Positions 55,272 to 63,435 of a DNA stretch of 64,000 nucleotides are shown piece by piece. Position numbers and translations under genes: made by a program. The notes under the pieces were generated by a model. That model worked only from the letters and a program-made list of their open reading frames with translations, did no database searches and was not told the origin of the DNA. Numbering within the stretch: position 1 is the stretch's first letter; each line of letters starts with the position of its first letter. The DNA comes from Marivibrio halodurans (GTDB lineage Bacteria; Pseudomonadota; Alphaproteobacteria; UBA8366; Aestuariispiraceae): NCBI RefSeq assembly GCF_017963645.1, contig NZ_JAGMWN010000006.1:1-64000 (forward strand). Direction: 5' to 3'.

Positions 55272-56822
55272 ATGTCGCTGACCGCAAGGCTCGATCTGCG
55301 ACAAAGCCAGCAGCTGGTCATGACCCCGCAGCTGCAGCAGGCGATCAAGCTGCTGCAGTTCTCCAGCGTCGAGCTCGCCGCCTTCGTCGAGGAGGAACTC
55401 GAACGCAACCCCCTGCTGGAGCGCGACGAAGGCCAGCGCGAGGCGGCGGACGAGCGCCTGCGCGCCGAGGATTCCGACCGCCACGCCCCCTCCTCCACCA
55501 CGGACGAGCGCCGCGACAGCGCGGAAATGCTGTCCGCCGACGGTGCCCAGGGCATCGATGACCGGGCACTCGACGCGGATTACGACGGCACCTACGAGGG
55601 CGATATCGCCGGCCCCGGCGCCGATGGCGGACAGGACAGGGGCGAGGCGGGGTTGAGCCTGACCGGCCCCGGCATGGGCGGCGGTGGGGGCGGTTTCGAC
55701 GACGATCCACGGGGGTTCGAGGAAACGCTCGCCGGGCCGGAGAGCCTGCAGGACCGTCTCGTCACCCAGCTCCACCTCGACACCGCCGAGCCGGCGGCGC
55801 GCATGATCGGCCTCTATCTGATCGATTCGCTGGACCCCTCCGGCTACCTCACCATCGATCTGGACGAGGTGGTGGACGCCCTCGGCGCCGATCGCGCGAC
55901 AGTCGAGGCCGTGTTGGCACGGCTTCAAGGGTTCGAGCCCGCGGGTCTCTTCGCGCGATCGCTCGCGGAATGCTTGAAACTGCAATTGATCGAGAAGAAC
56001 CGATTCGATCCCGCCATGGCCGCGCTGCTGGACAATCTCGACCTGCTGGCGCGGGGCGAACGGGCGAAACTGATGAAGCTGTGTGGCGTCGACGCCGAGG
56101 ACCTGACGGAGATGGCGGCGGAGCTGCGCGCCCTCGACCCCAAACCCGGCCTGACGCATGGCTTCGAGCCGGCCGAGCCCGTGATCCCCGACGTGCTGAT
56201 GCGACGCGGGCCGAAGGGCGACTGGATCATCGAGTTGAATCCCGACACCCTGCCCAAGGTGCTGGTGAACGAACGCTTCTACGCCGAGATCGCGGGCACG
56301 GCGCGCGAGCGGCGGGACAAGGAATATCTCTCCGAGCGGCTGCAGACCGCCAATTGGCTGGTGAAGAGCCTGCATCAGCGCGCCACCACCATCCTGAAGG
56401 TGTCGAGCGAACTGGTCCGCCAACAGGACGCCTTCTTCCGCCACGGCGTCGCGCATCTGAAACCGCTGGTGCTGCGTGATATCGCGGATGCGATCGAAAT
56501 GCATGAATCGACCGTCAGCCGCGTTACCTCCAACAAATATATCGCCAGTCCGCGCGGGCTGTTCGAACTCAAGTACTTCTTCACCACCCGCATCGCCGGG
56601 ACCGAGGGGGACCAGTCGCATTCCGCCGAATCCGTGCGCCACCGCATCCGCGCGCTGATCGACGCGGAAACGGCGGACAGCGTCCTCTCCGACGACAAGC
56701 TGGTCGAGATGCTGCGCGGGGAAGGCGTCGATATCGCGCGCAGAACGGTAGCCAAATACCGTGAAGCGATGCGGATTCCCTCCTCGGTGCAGCGCCGGCG
56801 TCGAAAAAAAGCCGCGATCTGA
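55272..56822 (+). CDS. rpoN: RNA polymerase sigma-54 factor
   Basis: A 516-residue sigma-54. The N-terminal activator-contact region is MSLTARLDLRQSQQLVMTPQ followed by LQQAIKLLQFSS. An acidic linker with a glycine-rich stretch spans about residues 50-150, the core-binding domain covers about 155-340, and the DNA-binding domain has HESTVSRVTSNKYIASPRG and the RpoN box ARRTVAKYRE near residue 495. It would direct transcription of nitrogen-related and other genes with enhancer-binding proteins. It lies 78 bases after lptB, as in many proteobacteria. Confidence 0.97.
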   Translation: MSLTARLDLRQSQQLVMTPQLQQAIKLLQFSSVELAAFVEEELERNPLLERDEGQREAADERLRAEDSDRHAPSSTTDERRDSAEMLSADGAQGIDDRALDADYDGTYEGDIAGPGADGGQDRGEAGLSLTGPGMGGGGGGFDDDPRGFEETLAGPESLQDRLVTQLHLDTAEPAARMIGLYLIDSLDPSGYLTIDLDEVVDALGADRATVEAVLARLQGFEPAGLFARSLAECLKLQLIEKNRFDPAMAALLDNLDLLARGERAKLMKLCGVDAEDLTEMAAELRALDPKPGLTHGFEPAEPVIPDVLMRRGPKGDWIIELNPDTLPKVLVNERFYAEIAGTARERRDKEYLSERLQTANWLVKSLHQRATTILKVSSELVRQQDAFFRHGVAHLKPLVLRDIADAIEMHESTVSRVTSNKYIASPRGLFELKYFFTTRIAGTEGDQSHSAESVRHRIRALIDAETADSVLSDDKLVEMLRGEGVDIARRTVAKYREAMRIPSSVQRRRRKKAAI

Positions 56823-57265
56823 ACACTAAGGTCATGTTTTCATGGGTTAATCACGATACTTGACGCGGCAGGGGGCGCTCAGTAGCTTCCGCCGCCATTC
56901 GGGTGCATCGGGCCCGGAACGCGGCCGGACGGTGGGGGCGCCGGATCGGCGGCGCGGGCGATACGGCGAGACGACGAAACGGGGTCAACGGGCGTATCCG
57001 ACGAACGGGACCGACGGGCTTGGGCGCAAACCCTATTCAGACGGGATGGCTGTGATACGATTGCGGTCCGGCGGCCGCACGCGAAGCCGAACGGCTTCCC
57101 GGCCGAGCGCGGATCGACGACCCCGCCGCCGCCACGCCGCCCGATCGGGTGCCGGGCGATGACGGGACGGTTCGCGGGACGGGCAGATCCCGGCCGCCGA
57201 TGGCGAAATGGACACGCGGCGCCCGCGCCGACGCGTCCGGTACAGGAAAGGATCCAAGGGGAATC
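56823..57265. other. 443-base stretch before hpf without a convincing gene
   Basis: Arg- and Gly-rich open frames cross here but none has a recognisable product. The left end is AT-richer, with a promoter-like pair at 56860-56888. The remainder would be a long hpf leader. Confidence 0.5.
56860..56888 (+). promoter_or_regulatory. Candidate promoter of hpf
   Basis: TTGACG (56860-56865), a 17-base spacer and TAGCTT (56883-56888) resemble -35 and -10 boxes. They stand about 375 bases before hpf, so the call is weak. Confidence 0.3.
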
Positions 57266-57871
57266 ATGCAGCTCGCAGTGAAAGGCAAGCAGGTCGATGT
57301 GGGCGATGCGTTGCGCACCCATATCGAGGAGACCCTGCCGGACTCCATCGGCAAGTATTTCGACAACACGACCGATGTCACGGTCACGATCGCCAAGGAC
57401 GGGCACAAGTTCACGGTCGATATCCAGGCCCATGTCTCGAAACGGGTGCTGGTGCAAGGCCGGGGCGCCGCCGGCGACGCCTATGGCGCCTTCGAGGAAG
57501 CGGCCGAGCATGTGCTGAAGCGTCTGCGCCGGCACAAGCGCCGCCTGCGCGACCACAAGCAGAAGATGTCGACGGCGGAAGCCGTGCCCGCGCTGCAATA
57601 TATCCTGGAGGCCGAGCGCGGCGGCGACGAGGAACCGGCCGACGACGCACCGCCGGCGGAGCCGATCATCGTCGCCGAAATGCCGACCGAGGTGGAAAGC
57701 ATGACGGTGGGCGAGGCGACGATGCGCCTGGATCTGGGCGGCCTGCCCGCGCTGCTGTTCCGCAATTCGAAGCACGGCGGGCTGAACATGGTCTATCAAC
57801 GCAGCGACGGGAACTACGGCTGGGTCGATCCCAAGCTGCTGACGGGCGGTGGCGGCGCGGGCGCCGACTGA
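57266..57871 (+). CDS. hpf: Ribosome hibernation promoting factor, long form
   Basis: A 201-residue protein. The N-terminal S30AE domain (about 1-100, from MQLAVKGKQVDVGDALRTHI) binds the decoding site of idle 30S subunits. A charged linker and a C-terminal domain (about 140-195, IIVAEMPTEVESMTVGEATM and NMVYQRSDGNYGWVDP) would pair two ribosomes into 100S dimers. Its place after rpoN and before ptsN is conserved. The ATG at 57266 follows AAGGGGAATC. Confidence 0.95.
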   Translation: MQLAVKGKQVDVGDALRTHIEETLPDSIGKYFDNTTDVTVTIAKDGHKFTVDIQAHVSKRVLVQGRGAAGDAYGAFEEAAEHVLKRLRRHKRRLRDHKQKMSTAEAVPALQYILEAERGGDEEPADDAPPAEPIIVAEMPTEVESMTVGEATMRLDLGGLPALLFRNSKHGGLNMVYQRSDGNYGWVDPKLLTGGGGAGAD

Positions 57872-57980
57872 CCCACGATCGATGAACGACGGTACGCGAC
57901 GGGCCGGGCCTTGCGCTCGGCCCGGCCGTGGCCAAATGAGGGCGAACCCATAGCGGGTCGAGCCAAGGGTCGAGAGCATC

Positions 57981-58448
57981 ATGGATATCAGCGATCTGTT
58001 GAGCACCGAGTGCGTGATCGAAAGCCTGACGGTCGCCTCCAAGAAGCAGGCGTTGCAGGAGATCGCGCGGAAGGCCGCCGAGATCACCGGCCTCGATGAA
58101 CGTCGTCTTTTCGACGTGCTGCTGGAGCGCGAGCGTCTCGGCTCCACCGGCGTCGGCCACGGCATCGCCATCCCGCACGGCAAGATCGCCGGGCTGGACC
58201 GGTTGCATGGCTTGTTCGCGCGGCTGGAACGGCCGATCGACTTCGAATCGATCGACGATCAGCCGGTCGACCTGATCTTCCTGCTGCTGGCGCCGGAAGG
58301 CGCGGGCGCGGACCATTTGAAGGCGCTGGCCCGGGTGTCGCGGCTGCTGCGCGACCGCACCACCTGCGAGAAGCTGCGCGGCTCCGACAACGCCGACGCG
58401 CTCTACGGCCTGCTGACCGAGCCGCAGACCTCCAGCCACGCCGCCTAG
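57981..58448 (+). CDS. ptsN: PTS IIA-like nitrogen-regulatory protein
   Basis: A 155-residue EIIA-Ntr. H66 in GIAIPHGKIAGL is the phosphorylated residue. TECVIESLTVASKKQALQEI and VDLIFLLLAPEGAGADHLKA are family signatures. It receives phosphate from the PTSNtr chain and in relatives controls potassium transport and nitrogen or carbon responses. It closes the rpoN-hpf-ptsN group and lies 109 bases after hpf. Confidence 0.95.
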   Translation: MDISDLLSTECVIESLTVASKKQALQEIARKAAEITGLDERRLFDVLLERERLGSTGVGHGIAIPHGKIAGLDRLHGLFARLERPIDFESIDDQPVDLIFLLLAPEGAGADHLKALARVSRLLRDRTTCEKLRGSDNADALYGLLTEPQTSSHAA

Positions 58449-58516
58449 CGCGACCGGGCGTCCCGGAACATTCGGTGCCACTGGTCGGGTCCCGCGATTC
58501 GGTGTAAGGCCGCTCC

Positions 58517-60103
58517 ATGGCACTTTTTCGCGCGATCGCCACCGTCGGCGGCTGGACCATGATGAGCCGCGTCCTGGGCTTCGCCCGGGACGTCGGCATC
58601 GCCAATGTGCTCGGCGCCGGCATGGTGACCGACGCCTTCTTCATCGCCTTCAAATTTCCCAATCTGTTTCGCCGCCTGTTCGGCGAAGGGGCGTTGAACG
58701 CCGCCTTCGTCCCCCTCTATGCCGGGCGCGCGGAGGCGGCGGAGAACGAGGACAGCCCGGAGGACAACCCGGAGAACGGCCCGGACGGCGCCACGCGCTT
58801 CGCGGGCGAGGTCGCGGGCGCCCTCACCCTCTTCATGCTGGTCTTCACGCTGATCGCCATGGGCGCCATGCCCTGGATCATGAGCGCGATCGCCCCCGGC
58901 TTCGCCGACGACCCGGCGAAATTCGCGCTGACGGTGGAACTGGGGCGGATCGCCTTCCCCTATCTGTTGTTCATGACGCTCTCGGCGCTGCTCTCGGGCA
59001 TCCTCAACGCGCAAGGGCGCTTCGGCGCGGCGGCGGCGGCGCCGATCCTGCTCAATATCGTGCTGCTCGGCGCGCTGGCGCTGATCCATCTGGGCATCGT
59101 CGGCGCACCGGGGCCGGGGCTGGCCTATGGTGTCGCGCTGGCGGGTGCCCTGCAGTTCGCGATGCTGGCCCTGGTCGCCCGGCGCGCGGGCCTGCTGCCG
59201 CGCGTGCCGCGCCCGCGTCTGACCCCGGGGGTCAGGCGGCTGATCGTGCTGATGGTGCCGGGCGTGGTCGGTGCCGGGGTCGTCCAGATCAACGTGATGA
59301 TCGGCGACGTGCTGGCCAGTTTCCTGGCGGAGGGCTCCGTCAGCTATCTCTATTACGCCGACCGGGTGAACCAATTGCCGCTCGGCGTCGTCGGCGTGGC
59401 GGTCGGAATCGCGCTGCTGCCGCTCCTCTCCCGCCATTTGAAGGCCGGTCGAGACAAGGAAGCAGCAGAGAGCATGAACCGCGCTATCGAGGTTTCGCTG
59501 CTGCTGACCCTGCCGGCGGCGGCGGCCCTGGTCGCGATTCCCGACGCGATCGTCCTGACCCTGTTCGAGCGCGGAGCCTTCGGCCCGGCGGCGGCGGCCG
59601 CGACGGCGGACGCGCTACGCGCCTTCGCGATCGGCCTGCCCGCCTATGTCCTGATCAAGGCGCTTTCCCCCGGTTTCTGGGCGCGGGAGGATACCAAGAC
59701 CCCGGTCCAGATCGCCGCCGGGGCGGTCGGGCTGAATATCGCGCTGGCGCTCGTCCTGATGGGGCCGCTCGCGCATGCGGGGATCGCGCTCGCCACGGCG
59801 CTGACGGCCTGGGTCAATGCCGGGACGCTCGCCTTCCTGTTGGCGCGGCGGGGACTGTTCCGGGCGGACCGGCGTCTGGTCCGGCGGGGCGGCCGCATGG
59901 TGCTGTCGGCCGGGCTGATGGCGGCGGCGCTGGTGGGCGGCGCCTACCTACTCGCCCCCTGGTTCGCCGGCGGGCTGGAGACGCGGGCGCCCGCGCTCCT
60001 GATCCTGGTCGTGGGCGGCGCGGCGGTCTATTTCGCCGCCGCCCAACTGCTTGGCGCCGCGCGCTTTAGCGAGGTCAAGGCAATGCTGCGCCGGCGGCGT
60101 TGA
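58517..60103 (+). CDS. murJ: Lipid II flippase MurJ
   Basis: A 528-residue inner-membrane protein with about 14 hydrophobic segments that flips lipid II for peptidoglycan synthesis. Family signatures are seen at the N-terminus (RAIATVGGWTMMSRVLGFAR and FKFPNLFRRLFGEGALNAAF) and in the middle (NQLPLGVVGVAVGIALLPLL). KALSPGFWAREDTKTPVQIA is the usual late motif. It ends in a strong terminator. Confidence 0.96.
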   Translation: MALFRAIATVGGWTMMSRVLGFARDVGIANVLGAGMVTDAFFIAFKFPNLFRRLFGEGALNAAFVPLYAGRAEAAENEDSPEDNPENGPDGATRFAGEVAGALTLFMLVFTLIAMGAMPWIMSAIAPGFADDPAKFALTVELGRIAFPYLLFMTLSALLSGILNAQGRFGAAAAAPILLNIVLLGALALIHLGIVGAPGPGLAYGVALAGALQFAMLALVARRAGLLPRVPRPRLTPGVRRLIVLMVPGVVGAGVVQINVMIGDVLASFLAEGSVSYLYYADRVNQLPLGVVGVAVGIALLPLLSRHLKAGRDKEAAESMNRAIEVSLLLTLPAAAALVAIPDAIVLTLFERGAFGPAAAAATADALRAFAIGLPAYVLIKALSPGFWAREDTKTPVQIAAGAVGLNIALALVLMGPLAHAGIALATALTAWVNAGTLAFLLARRGLFRADRRLVRRGGRMVLSAGLMAAALVGGAYLLAPWFAGGLETRAPALLILVVGGAAVYFAAAQLLGAARFSEVKAMLRRRR

Positions 60104-60296: not shown

Positions 60297-61616
60297 CTAG
60301 AATTGGGCCGACTCGGTGCTCTCGCCCATCGCCGTGGTGGCGCTGAGGCCATTGGCGGTGGCGTTGTTAACGGTGTCGAAATAGCTGACCCCGACCTCGT
60401 GCTGATGGCGGGTGGCGGAGAAGCCATGCGCCTCGGCCGCGAACTCGGCCTGCTGAAGCTCGGAATAGCCGGCCATGCCGCGCTCCTTATAAGCCCGAGC
60501 CAGTTCGAAGGTGGCGTAGTTCAGGCTGTGGAACCCGGCCAGCGTGATGAACTGGAACTTATAGCCCATCGCGCCCAGCTCACGCTGGAACTTCTCCATC
60601 GTGTCGCGGTCCAGATGCTTCGCCCAGTTGAAGGAGGGCGAGCAGTTATAGGCCAGCATCTGATCCGGATATTCCTTGCGGATCGCCTCGGCGAACTTCT
60701 TCGCCTCGCCCAGATCCGGGGTGGAGGTCTCCATCCAGAGCAGATCGGCATAGGGCGCGTAGGCGAGACCACGGGCGATGCCCATCTCGACGCCGCCGGT
60801 GATGCGGTGGAAGCCTTCCACCGTGCGCTCCCCGGTCAGGAAGGGCGCATCGCGCTCATCCACGTCGGAGGTGATGAGGCGCGCGGCCTCGGCGTCGGTG
60901 CGGGCCATGATGATGGTCGGCACGCCCATCACGTCGGCCGCCAGACGCGCGGAGTTCAGGTTGCGAACGGCCTGTTGCGTCGGCAACAGAACCTTGCCGC
61001 CCAGATGGCCGCACTTCTTCTCGGAGGCGAGCTGATCCTCGAAATGGACACCGCCCGCGCCGGCCTTGATCATCGCCTTCATCAGTTCGAAGACATTGAG
61101 CGGGCCGCCGAAACCGGCTTCCGCGTCGGCCACGATCGGGGCGAACCAGTCGATATCGTCGGTTTCCTGACCCTGATGCTGCTCCATCGTCTGGATCTGA
61201 TCCTGACGGATGAAGGCGTTGTTGATCCGCTCCACCACCTGCGGGACCGAGGAAACCGGATAGAGCGACTGGTCCGGATACATCTGGCCCGCATTGTTGG
61301 CGTCCGCCGCGACCTGCCAGCCGGAGAGATAGATCGCCTTCAACCCGGCGCGCACATGCTGCACCGCCTGACAGCCCGTGAAGGCGCCCAGCGTGTTGAT
61401 ATAAGGCTCCTCATGCAGAAGCTTCCACAGCTTCTCCGCGCCCATCTCGGCCAGCGTATGGCGGATCTGGACGGAGCCGCGCAGCTGCTCCACCTCCTTG
61501 CGGCTGTAGTCGCGGCGCGTCGTCGCCCAACGGTCCGGCGCGTAATCCGGCGCGGGCCAGTCCTCGCCGCCCTCGGGCGTCGGTTCCCAATTGTAGCCGG
61601 AGCTGATGCTGTCCAT
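60297..61616 (-). CDS. aceA: Isocitrate lyase
   Basis: Splits isocitrate into succinate and glyoxylate, the first step of the glyoxylate shunt. The 439-residue protein has the catalytic KKCGH at 200-204 (C202), [31 protein letters not shown] and the late [13 protein letters not shown]. Length and motifs match the shorter, E. coli-like form. The ATG at 61616 follows AAGGAGTGAGAG. It is divergent from a RamB/PccR-type regulator and carries a TTTACAAA-N4-TTTACAAG motif 53 bases upstream. Malate synthase is not in the window. Confidence 0.97.
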
Positions 61617-61668: not shown

Positions 61669-61688
61669 TTTACAAACGGATTTACAAG
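61669..61688. promoter_or_regulatory. Candidate operator upstream of aceA
   Basis: TTTACAAA (61669-61676), four bases (CGGA), then TTTACAAG (61681-61688). This is the spacing and nearly the sequence of the TTTGCAAA-N4-TTTGCAAA motif known for short-chain acyl-CoA regulators of the PccR type. It lies between aceA and a gene for such a regulator. Confidence 0.65.
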
Positions 61689-61806
61689 AAGCGCGCGCCT
61701 CGTTCGGACCGTTTCACGCTTCGCATTTCCGCCCTGAAGGCTTGATAACGCCGGGATGGTGCGACGCACAACGCTTTCAAACATGACAGCGATGGACAAA
61801 AGGTTG

Positions 61807-61839
61807 GTAAATTATTTACTATTAGTAAATCATGTAAAT
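61807..61839. promoter_or_regulatory. Clustered GTAAAT palindromes before the ScfR-type regulator
   Basis: Four GTAAAT half-sites alternate in orientation: 61807-61812, ATTTAC 61814-61819, GTAAAT 61825-61830 and GTAAAT 61834-61839. GTAAATTATTTAC and ATTTACTATTAGTAAAT are perfect palindromes apart from their centres. The units share TTTAC with the site before aceA, so autoregulation is likely. Confidence 0.6.
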
Positions 61840-61857
61840 TCACGACGATGGGACGAT

Positions 61858-63435
61858 ATGGCGAACACCGCGCAATCCGGGAAATCCACGGCCAAGCAAG
61901 CCCCGAAGATCGGCGCCAAGATCCGCCGCCTGCGCCGGGAGCAGGGCCTGACCCAGGCGCAACTGGCCGAGCGCCTGGGGGTCAGCGCCTCCTATCTAAA
62001 TCTGATCGAGCATAACCGGCGCAAGCTGACGACCGACCTGCTTCTGGGCATCGCGGAGCAATTCAAGCTCGACTTCGCCAGCCTGGCGGAAGACGACGAA
62101 AGCCGCCTCTATAACGACGTGATGGACGCCTTCGGCGACCGTCTGTTCGAGGAGGTGGAACTGACGAACACCGACGTGCGAGAGCTGGTCACCGCCAGCC
62201 CCCAGGCCGCCCGCGCGCTGCTCACCCTCTATGACGCCTATTACAAGACGCTGAACGACGCCCGCTCGCTCGCCGCCCAGATGACGGATGGGGAGGAAGA
62301 CGGCGGCGGCTTCGGTATCGGTGGCTTCGCGCTGGCCGATCTGGCACCGGCGGACCTGATCTCCGACATGATTCAGGAGAACCAGAATCATTTCGCCGAT
62401 CTGGAACACGAGGCCGACCGCGTGCGCCGCGAGGTGAAGATGGTGGGCGACACGGTCGGCCACGACACCGCCGCCCTGTCCTGGGAACGCATGGCGGATT
62501 ATCTGCGCGAGGCCCATGGCGTGCGCACCGTCTTCGCGACACCGGAGCCGACGCCCGGCACGGGCGGCGAGGCGGGAACCGGAACGGGCGGGATCGCCAG
62601 GCGCTTCGACAAGCGCGACCGGGCGCTGACCATCTCCGCACGGCTGGACGCGCAGGCGCGCGCCTTCCAACTCGCCCATCAGATCGGCCAGCTTTCCGCC
62701 GATCCGGTGCTGGAAATGCTGCTGACCGAGAACCGCATCAAGCAGGAACAGGGCCGCGCGCTGGGGCGCGTCGCGCTGGCCAACTACTTCGCCGCCGCCC
62801 TTCTTATGCCGTACGAGGAAGTGCTGGGCGCCGCGCGCGCCACGCGCTACGACATCGAACTGCTGCAACATCAGTTCAATGCCAGCTTCGAGCAGGTCTG
62901 CCACCGGTTGACCAGCCTGACCCGGCCGGGCGATGCCGGGATTCCTCTGCACATGCTGCGCGTCGATACCGCGGGCAACATCTCCAAGCGCTTCACGCTC
63001 TCCGGCCTGCCGATCCCACGCCACGGCGGTGCCTGCGCGCGCTGGAACGTCTATTCGGCCTTCCTCAATCCCGGCGTGATCCAGGCCCAGGTCTCGAAGC
63101 TGCCGGAGGGGCAAGCCTATTTCTGCATCGCGCGCACCGTGCGCAAGGGCGGCGTGGGGCACGGCGCGCGATCCTATTTCCAGTCGATCGGCATCGGCTG
63201 CGATCTGCGCTATGCCCGCGAGATGGTCTATTCCGACGATGTCGAACTCGACCGACCCGAACGTTTCGGGGAAATCGGCGTCGCCTGCCGTATCTGCGAG
63301 CGGATGGATTGCGGCCAGCGCGCCTTCCCGCCGGTACATCTGCGCTACACGGTCGACCCGGACCTGCGCGGCGCCAGCCCCTATACCGCCCCCGGCTGGC
63401 CCTGGCATCACGAACGGCCGGGGCCGACGCGCTGA
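61858..63435 (+). CDS. XRE-type short-chain acyl-CoA regulator (RamB/PccR-like)
   Basis: A 525-residue regulator. An N-terminal XRE helix-turn-helix (about residues 15-70: GLTQAQLAERLGVSASYLNL) is followed by a central ImmA/IrrE-like region (about 225-345, ARAFQLAHQIGQL) and a C-terminal DUF2083-type domain with cysteines (GVACRICERMDCGQRAFPP). This is the layout of RamB, PrpR and PccR, which respond to acetyl- or propionyl-CoA. Its place opposite aceA matches RamB control of isocitrate lyase in corynebacteria. A Gly/Thr-rich linker is present near residue 235. I chose the ATG at 61858; upstream ATGs would place the operator cluster inside the gene. Confidence 0.9.
   Translation: MANTAQSGKSTAKQAPKIGAKIRRLRREQGLTQAQLAERLGVSASYLNLIEHNRRKLTTDLLLGIAEQFKLDFASLAEDDESRLYNDVMDAFGDRLFEEVELTNTDVRELVTASPQAARALLTLYDAYYKTLNDARSLAAQMTDGEEDGGGFGIGGFALADLAPADLISDMIQENQNHFADLEHEADRVRREVKMVGDTVGHDTAALSWERMADYLREAHGVRTVFATPEPTPGTGGEAGTGTGGIARRFDKRDRALTISARLDAQARAFQLAHQIGQLSADPVLEMLLTENRIKQEQGRALGRVALANYFAAALLMPYEEVLGAARATRYDIELLQHQFNASFEQVCHRLTSLTRPGDAGIPLHMLRVDTAGNISKRFTLSGLPIPRHGGACARWNVYSAFLNPGVIQAQVSKLPEGQAYFCIARTVRKGGVGHGARSYFQSIGIGCDLRYAREMVYSDDVELDRPERFGEIGVACRICERMDCGQRAFPPVHLRYTVDPDLRGASPYTAPGWPWHHERPGPTR

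Follow-up and report, generated by a model that had tools for sequence, protein, structure and literature searches.

A probable two-sided operator between the isocitrate lyase gene aceA and a divergent ScfR-family regulator gene in Marivibrio halodurans

The isocitrate lyase gene aceA of Marivibrio halodurans stands divergent from a gene for an ScfR-family regulator, and the 241 bp between them are crowded with short repeats, which raises the question of whether these repeats form an operator, which kind of regulator would read it and which of the two genes it would control. The locus was analysed in a window of 64,000 nucleotides, meaning the whole stretch of DNA under study, in which the two genes are placed as follows:

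60297-61616, minus strand: aceA, isocitrate lyase, 439 amino acids (NCBIfam NF011645, 733 bits; Pfam ICL)
61858-63435, plus strand: regulator, 525 amino acids, with the ScfR domain order of HTH (Pfam HTH_3), IrrE-like domain (Peptidase_M78) and ScfRs C-terminal domain (Pfam ScfRs, 188.7 bits)

No aceB lies beside aceA in the window, and the malate synthase G gene of the same genome is found on another contig (C11). Before aceA (55272-60103) lies an ordinary cluster of rpoN (sigma-54), a ribosome hibernation factor, PTS EIIA and murJ, as assigned by Pfam. The divergent aceA-ScfR pair is present at 13 loci of the order, the window's own counted. The genome also carries a second, distant ScfR-like gene on contig C21 (about 91050-92610, L057), whose neighbours read by eye as a response regulator and a substrate-binding protein, and with which L069, from another family, groups in one protein tree. 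Judged from sequence comparison, the intergenic region is probably a two-sided operator of the RamB-like ScfR regulator, through which aceA and the regulator's own gene would both be controlled.

Six TTTAC/GTAAA units lie between the genes (61669, 61681, 61807, 61815, 61825 and 61834), confirming what an earlier note on this DNA had described, and they make up six of the window's 15 copies within 170 bp. Dinucleotide shuffles of the 241-bp stretch gave a mean of 0.54 units and a maximum of 4, and none of 5000 reached six. The units are arranged in three elements:

61669-61688, no strand assigned: aceA-proximal pair TTTACAAACGGATTTACAAG, within the predicted aceA leader
61807-61819, no strand assigned: extra half-sites GTAAA (61807-61811) and TTTAC (61815-61819), mutually palindromic
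61825-61838, plus strand: core box GTAAATCATGTAAA, a direct repeat with a 9-bp period, 19 bp before the regulator ATG

The overlapping palindromes that the same note had placed before the regulator are present, GTAAATtATTTAC (61807-61819) overlapping ATTTACtattaGTAAAT (61814-61830). The direct repeat of the core box, formed by the last two units, was absent from that description; the other half-sites in the window start 18 and 10 bp before it. On the aceA side, a search for TTTRCAAA-N4-TTTRCAAR that allowed up to two mismatches gave a single place in the window; in the 4.18-Mb genome there is one place without mismatch and one more with two.

Conservation was followed in orthologous loci from the order (43 genomes) and from the class, where 27 of 385 genomes, the window's own counted, carried one at E 1e-110. 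A motif-free count of all pairs of four-letter words with gaps up to 24, made on 36 regulator-upstream regions, returned GTAA-N5-GTAA as the top dyad in 18 of the 36, tied with overlapping words of the same box, against a best dyad of 7 across 20 shuffle rounds. Of 39 orthologous loci, 21 have an exact GTAAA-N4-GTAAA no more than about 60 bp from where the regulator begins, the distance being taken from the start of homology where no start codon was found. The 39 include two loci (L011 and L014) whose sequence stops at the beginning of the regulator, so that no box could be seen in them; shuffled controls of the 39 loci (500 rounds) gave a mean of 0.02 and a maximum of 1. L005, which is the same locus as L003, was dropped from these counts, and the paralogues L021-L025 and L057 were excluded. 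Among the 37 loci whose upstream sequence is complete, 16 have no strict box, some of these showing a period of 8 or 10 or GTCA variants, and boxes of this kind are present in loci down to 38% protein identity. The setting varies, aceA being convergent in L060 (the same as L019), and no aceA was seen in the examined DNA of L011, L014 and L020. Across 11 aligned family members, the stretch that reaches from the candidate aceA -35 to the core box can be aligned, both core-box units or close variants are present, and TTTAC is aligned at the second place (61815) in 8 of the 11.

The half-sites next to aceA are also observed in relatives. At least one lies in the 122 bp adjoining aceA in 11 of the 13 divergent loci (shuffles: mean 2.5, maximum 7) and at least two in 9 of 13 (shuffles: maximum 3), while the two divergent loci outside the family have none. 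The earlier note had looked to the N4 motif upstream of orthologous aceA genes as a sign of a shared operator; the exact pair, TTTAC-N7-TTTAC with a 12-bp distance, recurs in only two of the 13 divergent loci of the order, and both spacing and orientation of the half-sites vary from locus to locus. These half-sites are thus real within the family with unfixed spacing and orientation, and the regulator-proximal GTAAA-N4-GTAAA is the best conserved part of the region, the N4 pair being a lesser, family-limited one.

In the window's own genome, exact GTAAA-N4-GTAAA occurs at two places, compared with four for the reversed control pattern, so the exact box marks no regulon in this genome, and a regulon defined by it was rejected. 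The other place (C11:94518-94531, L056) lies between an AhpC/TSA-family gene and a deacetylase-like gene, the latter named by eye, and is probably due to chance. No box was found at the malate synthase G gene on C11, and a box common to this gene and aceA was likewise rejected. In one relative (L017, genome G015) the orthologous regulator has an in-frame TAA in the region of the HTH recognition helix next to an intact operator box, which may reflect a decaying gene or a sequencing error.

The regulator scores 378 bits against the RamB model NCBIfam NF038139, under its curated cut-off of 700. Among solved structures it has M. tuberculosis PrpR as a relative, homology of the CoA pocket is kept, and all four Fe-S cysteines (Cys363 and C-X2-C-X4-C in PrpR numbering) are retained, aligning with GGAC393 and ACRICERMDC. 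According to the accessible part of PMC6765138, PrpR Phe155 is tied to propionyl-CoA selectivity and PccR has Trp at this place. The window's regulator has Ala165 there, and the residue is non-aromatic in 39 of 39 orthologues; a prpD-linked homologue has Phe and a pccB-linked one Tyr. In two protein trees, midpoint-rooted so that the root does not give the order of branches, the regulator falls in a clade of 22 rows (SH-aLRT 99). A second group contains other aceA-linked regulators, L067 (divergent from a carboxyl-transferase gene read as pccB), L068 (divergent from prpD and a citrate-synthase-type gene by Pfam) and, in one tree, a Paracoccus-type RamB; L025, L057, L069 and L070 were excluded from the tree that contains the latter. 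The Paracoccus-type RamB is a stand-in for Pden_1365, its genus inferred and its genome found through the mapped Paracoccus binding site, to which one genome among the 394 of its family gave a match of 79% over 68 bases. The stand-in locus has an identical box 1 next to the start codon, and its divergent gene was recognised by eye as malate synthase; the window's regulator is 37% identical to the stand-in protein. These trees place the window's regulator neither with PccR nor in the Paracoccus-type RamB clade, though it occurs in the same setting as the latter.

The half-sites of the relatives differ in one base, and this difference goes with the type of regulator. The HTH residue that best tracks it is encoded here:

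62002-62004, plus strand: codon of Leu49 in the HTH recognition helix (SYLN-L)

In a first comparison, pccB- and prpD-linked regulators had Gln after SYLN and TTTGC upstream, and aceA-linked regulators had Leu and TTTAC. The residue-49 hypothesis was fixed before it was tested on 79 other ScfR loci from a phylum-wide draw, in which 62 of 299 genomes have such a gene. The 44 Leu loci gave an excess of TTTAC/GTAAA over TTTGC/GCAAA in 38 cases, the reverse in 1 and a tie in 5; for the 31 Gln loci TTTGC was in excess in 26, TTTAC in 3 and neither in 2, the remainder of the set being three His loci and one that could not be aligned. With the discovery rows added (129 ScfR genes), TTTAC is in excess in 79 of 90 Leu and TTTGC in 28 of 33 Gln regulators. 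Residue 49 carries 0.56 bits on site type, the highest value of the HTH positions, followed by residue 52 with 0.40, in a ranking that used every one of the 117 site-labelled rows, discovery rows included. On the tree of 113 rows with both traits there is 1 Leu/Gln change vs 7 changes of half-site type. Because a single Leu/Gln change is one independent event, Fisher's p (2e-14) is not to be taken at face value, and the correlation was rejected as proof of a code, there being one independent pair and several site changes without a change of residue. The split of A and G with residue 49 is a lead that rests on one evolutionary split.

Spacing is less uniform than half-site type in the wider sample. 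Of the 90 Leu-type upstream regions, 26 have the 9-bp pair and 2 the 12-bp (N4) pair; of the 33 Gln-type ones, 6 have the former and none the latter. Only four of the 44 distant Leu test loci have the 9-bp pair (L100, L103, L130 and L151), distances of 17 and 8 being commoner there. By eye and post hoc, the three His loci of one genus (L098, L105 and L114) have GTCA/TGAC repeats upstream and not GTAAA/GCAAA, and the single Met locus has GTGAA-N4-GTGAA; these would count as additional changes beside the Leu/Gln one. L017, with its broken HTH, has His at the residue-49 place yet GTAAA sites, which either counts against this reading of His or reflects a broken gene. An advance prediction for Paracoccus RamB (not Gln, most likely His) came half true, since the Paracoccus-type regulator has Leu. 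By position we take residue 49 as the counterpart of Gln33 of the 434 repressor, a protein that is among the weak sequence matches of the regulator's HTH. The A in place of G, which the earlier note had taken for a variant of this locus, is therefore usual for the regulator's part of the family (TTTAC excess in 79 of 90), and the operator probably differs from TTTGCAAA sites because this part of the family goes with A and the other with G. The TTTAC versus TTTGC question becomes a one-residue, one-base hypothesis. In the literature searched, which covered the main ScfR literature in part, no mention of a link between residue 49 and the half-site was found, and the accessible part of PMC9491525 held nothing on the window's regulator.

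Crotonyl-CoA carboxylase/reductase, encoded by ccr, is the key enzyme of the ethylmalonyl-CoA pathway. The gene (TIGR01751) was over cut-off in 8 of the 39 genomes with an orthologue and was not found over cut-off in the other 31, the window's own among them, several of the searched genomes being incomplete drafts. None was found in the 13 family genomes searched (14 seen), the window's own included, and on the tree ccr occurs in 1 of 22 members of the window's clade vs 7 of 17 other orthologues. As ccr was not found, the ligand proposed for Paracoccus, or any intermediate of the ethylmalonyl-CoA pathway, is unlikely to serve here, and we infer that another CoA ester, or the same ester made by another route, must act as the signal. 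The Paracoccus ligand model, the one fully developed model in the literature covered, cannot apply as it stands in carriers without ccr, and the locus offers a concrete candidate operator for the control of isocitrate lyase in Alphaproteobacteria that seemingly have no ethylmalonyl-CoA pathway. The operator itself is of a known type; the residue-49 split and the absence of ccr in most carriers may be less expected by a specialist. A tentative and bolder combination of the two is conceivable, in which residue 49 sets the half-site (Leu for GTAAA, Gln for GCAAA, perhaps His for GTCA and Met for GTGAA) and the window's lineage is a separate RamB-like branch, mostly without the ethylmalonyl-CoA pathway, with a pocket of its own (Ala165, Ser169) and, in consequence, a distinct CoA-ester signal.

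How the operator might act depends on the promoters, for which the following candidates and one further element were found:

61743-61748, minus strand: candidate aceA -10 TTATCA, 17-bp spacer, picked by eye in the 11-member family alignment
61760-61768, no strand assigned: TGCGACGCA, fitting the PhaR core YGCRNYGCR and adjoining the candidate aceA -35
61766-61771, minus strand: candidate aceA -35 TTGTGC, by eye from the same alignment
61793-61822, plus strand: candidate regulator promoter TGGACA-N18-TACTAT, from a promoter scan (9/12 matches)

By its conservation, TTGTGC-N17-TTATCA (61771-61743) appears to be the best candidate for the aceA promoter; it was not picked up by the sigma-70 scan. 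The best minus-strand match of the scan is TTTACA-N16-AATAAT (61838-61811), which lies inside the array and matches at 10 of 12 positions as a sigma-70 promoter; if this promoter served aceA, the array would then act as a site of repression. The candidate regulator -10 ends 2 bp before the core box. As a separate observation, TGCGACGCACAAC at 61760-61772 fits the core YGCRNYGCR of PhaR, the polyhydroxybutyrate regulator (motif from the accessible part of PMC12542648). This core stands at about the same place in 9 of the 11 family members and may tie aceA to the storage-polymer state; a genome-wide regulon defined by it was rejected, the pattern showing no enrichment (45 vs 73 for the reversed control).

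For Paracoccus denitrificans, Kremer 2023, in its accessible part, maps the site of RamB (Pden_1365) upstream of the ms-icl operon, with the boxes TGACAAACCTTACA and TGACAATACTGACT and an 18-bp spacer as read from wild-type and mutant oligonucleotides (PMC10370305). Read on the opposite strand, the boxes become GTAAGGTTTGTCA and GTCAGTATTGTCA, which have a 9-bp period and the form GTAA-N5-GTCA, and by reading of the primer table box 1 ends directly before the ramB start codon. In the same partly accessible paper, the reporter signal of the divergent glyoxylate operon is lost when either box is mutated and binding is lost when both are, RamB is reported as a dual activator/repressor, and the proposed ligand is beta-methylmalyl-CoA, an intermediate of the ethylmalonyl-CoA pathway (PMC10370305).

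Taking Paracoccus RamB as the model, one can propose for the window's locus how the regulator binds and switches its oligomeric state, where the promoters lie and in which direction each gene is regulated. The main site would be the regulator-proximal array, made of GTAAA-N4-GTAAA at 61825-61838 and the half-sites at 61807 and 61815. It would lie about 70-100 bp upstream of the predicted aceA transcription start (about -71 to -102), which is an activator position, and across the predicted transcription start of the regulator, where binding would suit autorepression. Within the predicted aceA leader, at about +48 to +67, the aceA-proximal pair (61669-61688) would provide a second site that is weaker or represses. 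Ligand-poor regulator would sit on both sides and hold aceA and its own gene low; as a CoA ester accumulates on acetate or fatty acids, the oligomeric state of the regulator would change and, with the regulator still on the array, aceA would be activated. This geometry would fit one bound complex that represses its own gene and acts on aceA, the leader site adding repression. The regulator lies outside the Paracoccus-type RamB clade, so the activator/repressor behaviour may not carry over, and confidence is slightly lowered by the rarity of the 9-bp pair in distant Leu loci, the seven changes of site label and the rival promoter inside the array. The proposal of the earlier note that aceA and the divergent regulator share an operator is nonetheless strengthened by conservation in orthologues and by likeness to the Paracoccus boxes, and a dual role is plausible.

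Other readings of the same repeats were weighed against the two-sided operator. The array might be purely autoregulatory, with aceA under the control of the pair on its own side or of a different protein, for instance a PhaR-like regulator at 61760. The position of the core box on the regulator's predicted start would suit this, as would its retention in L020 and L042, where no aceA was seen in the examined DNA, and the YGCRNYGCR core beside the aceA -35 in 9 of 11 family members; against it, the like-placed box 1 of Paracoccus is needed to activate the divergent operon (PMC10370305, seen in part), and half-sites next to aceA occur, among the families examined, in one family only, with no fixed spacing or orientation, which leaves a purely autoregulatory array unlikely. 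The same Paracoccus result bears on the palindromic autoregulatory switch that the earlier note had proposed. The half-sites of that switch are there and autoregulation is plausible, but what is conserved at its core is a direct repeat of 9-bp period, accompanied by further half-sites, and the element called autoregulatory stands where Paracoccus has an activator box, which drives the glyoxylate operon and does not serve autoregulation only (PMC10370305, in its accessible part).

The earlier note had likened the regulator to PccR, and on that reading a PccR-type site (TTTGCAAA-N4-TTTGCAAA, with G changed to A) would stand before aceA, responding to acetyl- or propionyl-CoA, with a separate palindromic switch before the regulator. 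PccR of Rhodobacter is said to have a site with two TTTGCAAA units spaced by N4, and the N4 pair is indeed present and unique in the genome without mismatch. The likeness does not survive comparison, however: two of the 13 loci and none of the 33 Gln-type regions have the pair, the regulator lies outside the pccB-/prpD-linked branch, and Ala165 replaces the aromatic residue of propionyl-CoA sensors. On conservation and tree position the PccR reading of the aceA-proximal pair was rejected, and a site of this type is very improbable. Hardly more credible, and if anything less so, is that the AT-rich units belong to the promoters or leaders of both genes and have no regulator function. The region is AT-rich and TTTACA-N16-AATAAT in the array reaches 10/12 as a sigma-70 promoter, but composition-matched shuffles do not yield the repeat, and the half-site shifts from TTTAC to TTTGC with the type of regulator, which would be unexpected of a plain promoter. 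The two-sided operator of the ScfR regulator is the most likely reading.

The PccR type, represented in this comparison by the pccB-linked homologue L067 and not by the R. sphaeroides protein, shares with the window's locus the protein family and short AT-rich half-sites of similar shape, whereas in L067 the recognition helix carries Gln and the pocket Tyr, and the units are TTTGC. Of the traits of PccR/MccR, the window's regulator shows neither the tree grouping with pccB/prpD-linked regulators, nor an aromatic residue at the PrpR 155 place, nor TTTGC half-sites. The PrpR site of M. tuberculosis, TTTGCAAA-N1-TTTGCgAA, also has a 9-bp period (PMC6765138, in its accessible part). PrpR and RamB of M. 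tuberculosis share the ScfR fold with the window's regulator, and the 9-bp period is common to the PrpR site and the core box, but the half-site is TTTGC there and TTTAC here, and Phe155 (PrpR) or His143 (RamB) stands in place of Ala165.

The window's locus shows two traits of the RamB type as a functional grouping, namely a regulator gene that adjoins a glyoxylate-cycle gene and two GTMA half-sites with a 9-bp period between the genes. Compared with Paracoccus RamB, the window's locus differs in having aceA alone without aceB, half-sites of GTAAA only, extra half-sites in the aceA leader and no ccr found. The two systems are alike in an ScfR gene divergent from glyoxylate-cycle genes, in GTMA half-sites with a 9-bp period, in one box by the regulator start and in the CoA-pocket fold with its Fe-S cysteines, the likeness of the boxes being judged from the oligonucleotides and not from a published consensus logo. 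The distance from box to box in Paracoccus is 32, and among the 90 Leu-type regions a second GTAAA stands 31, 32, 40 or 41 bp away in 6, 13, 12 and 9 cases, so that GTAAA at 31-32 bp recurs in relatives.
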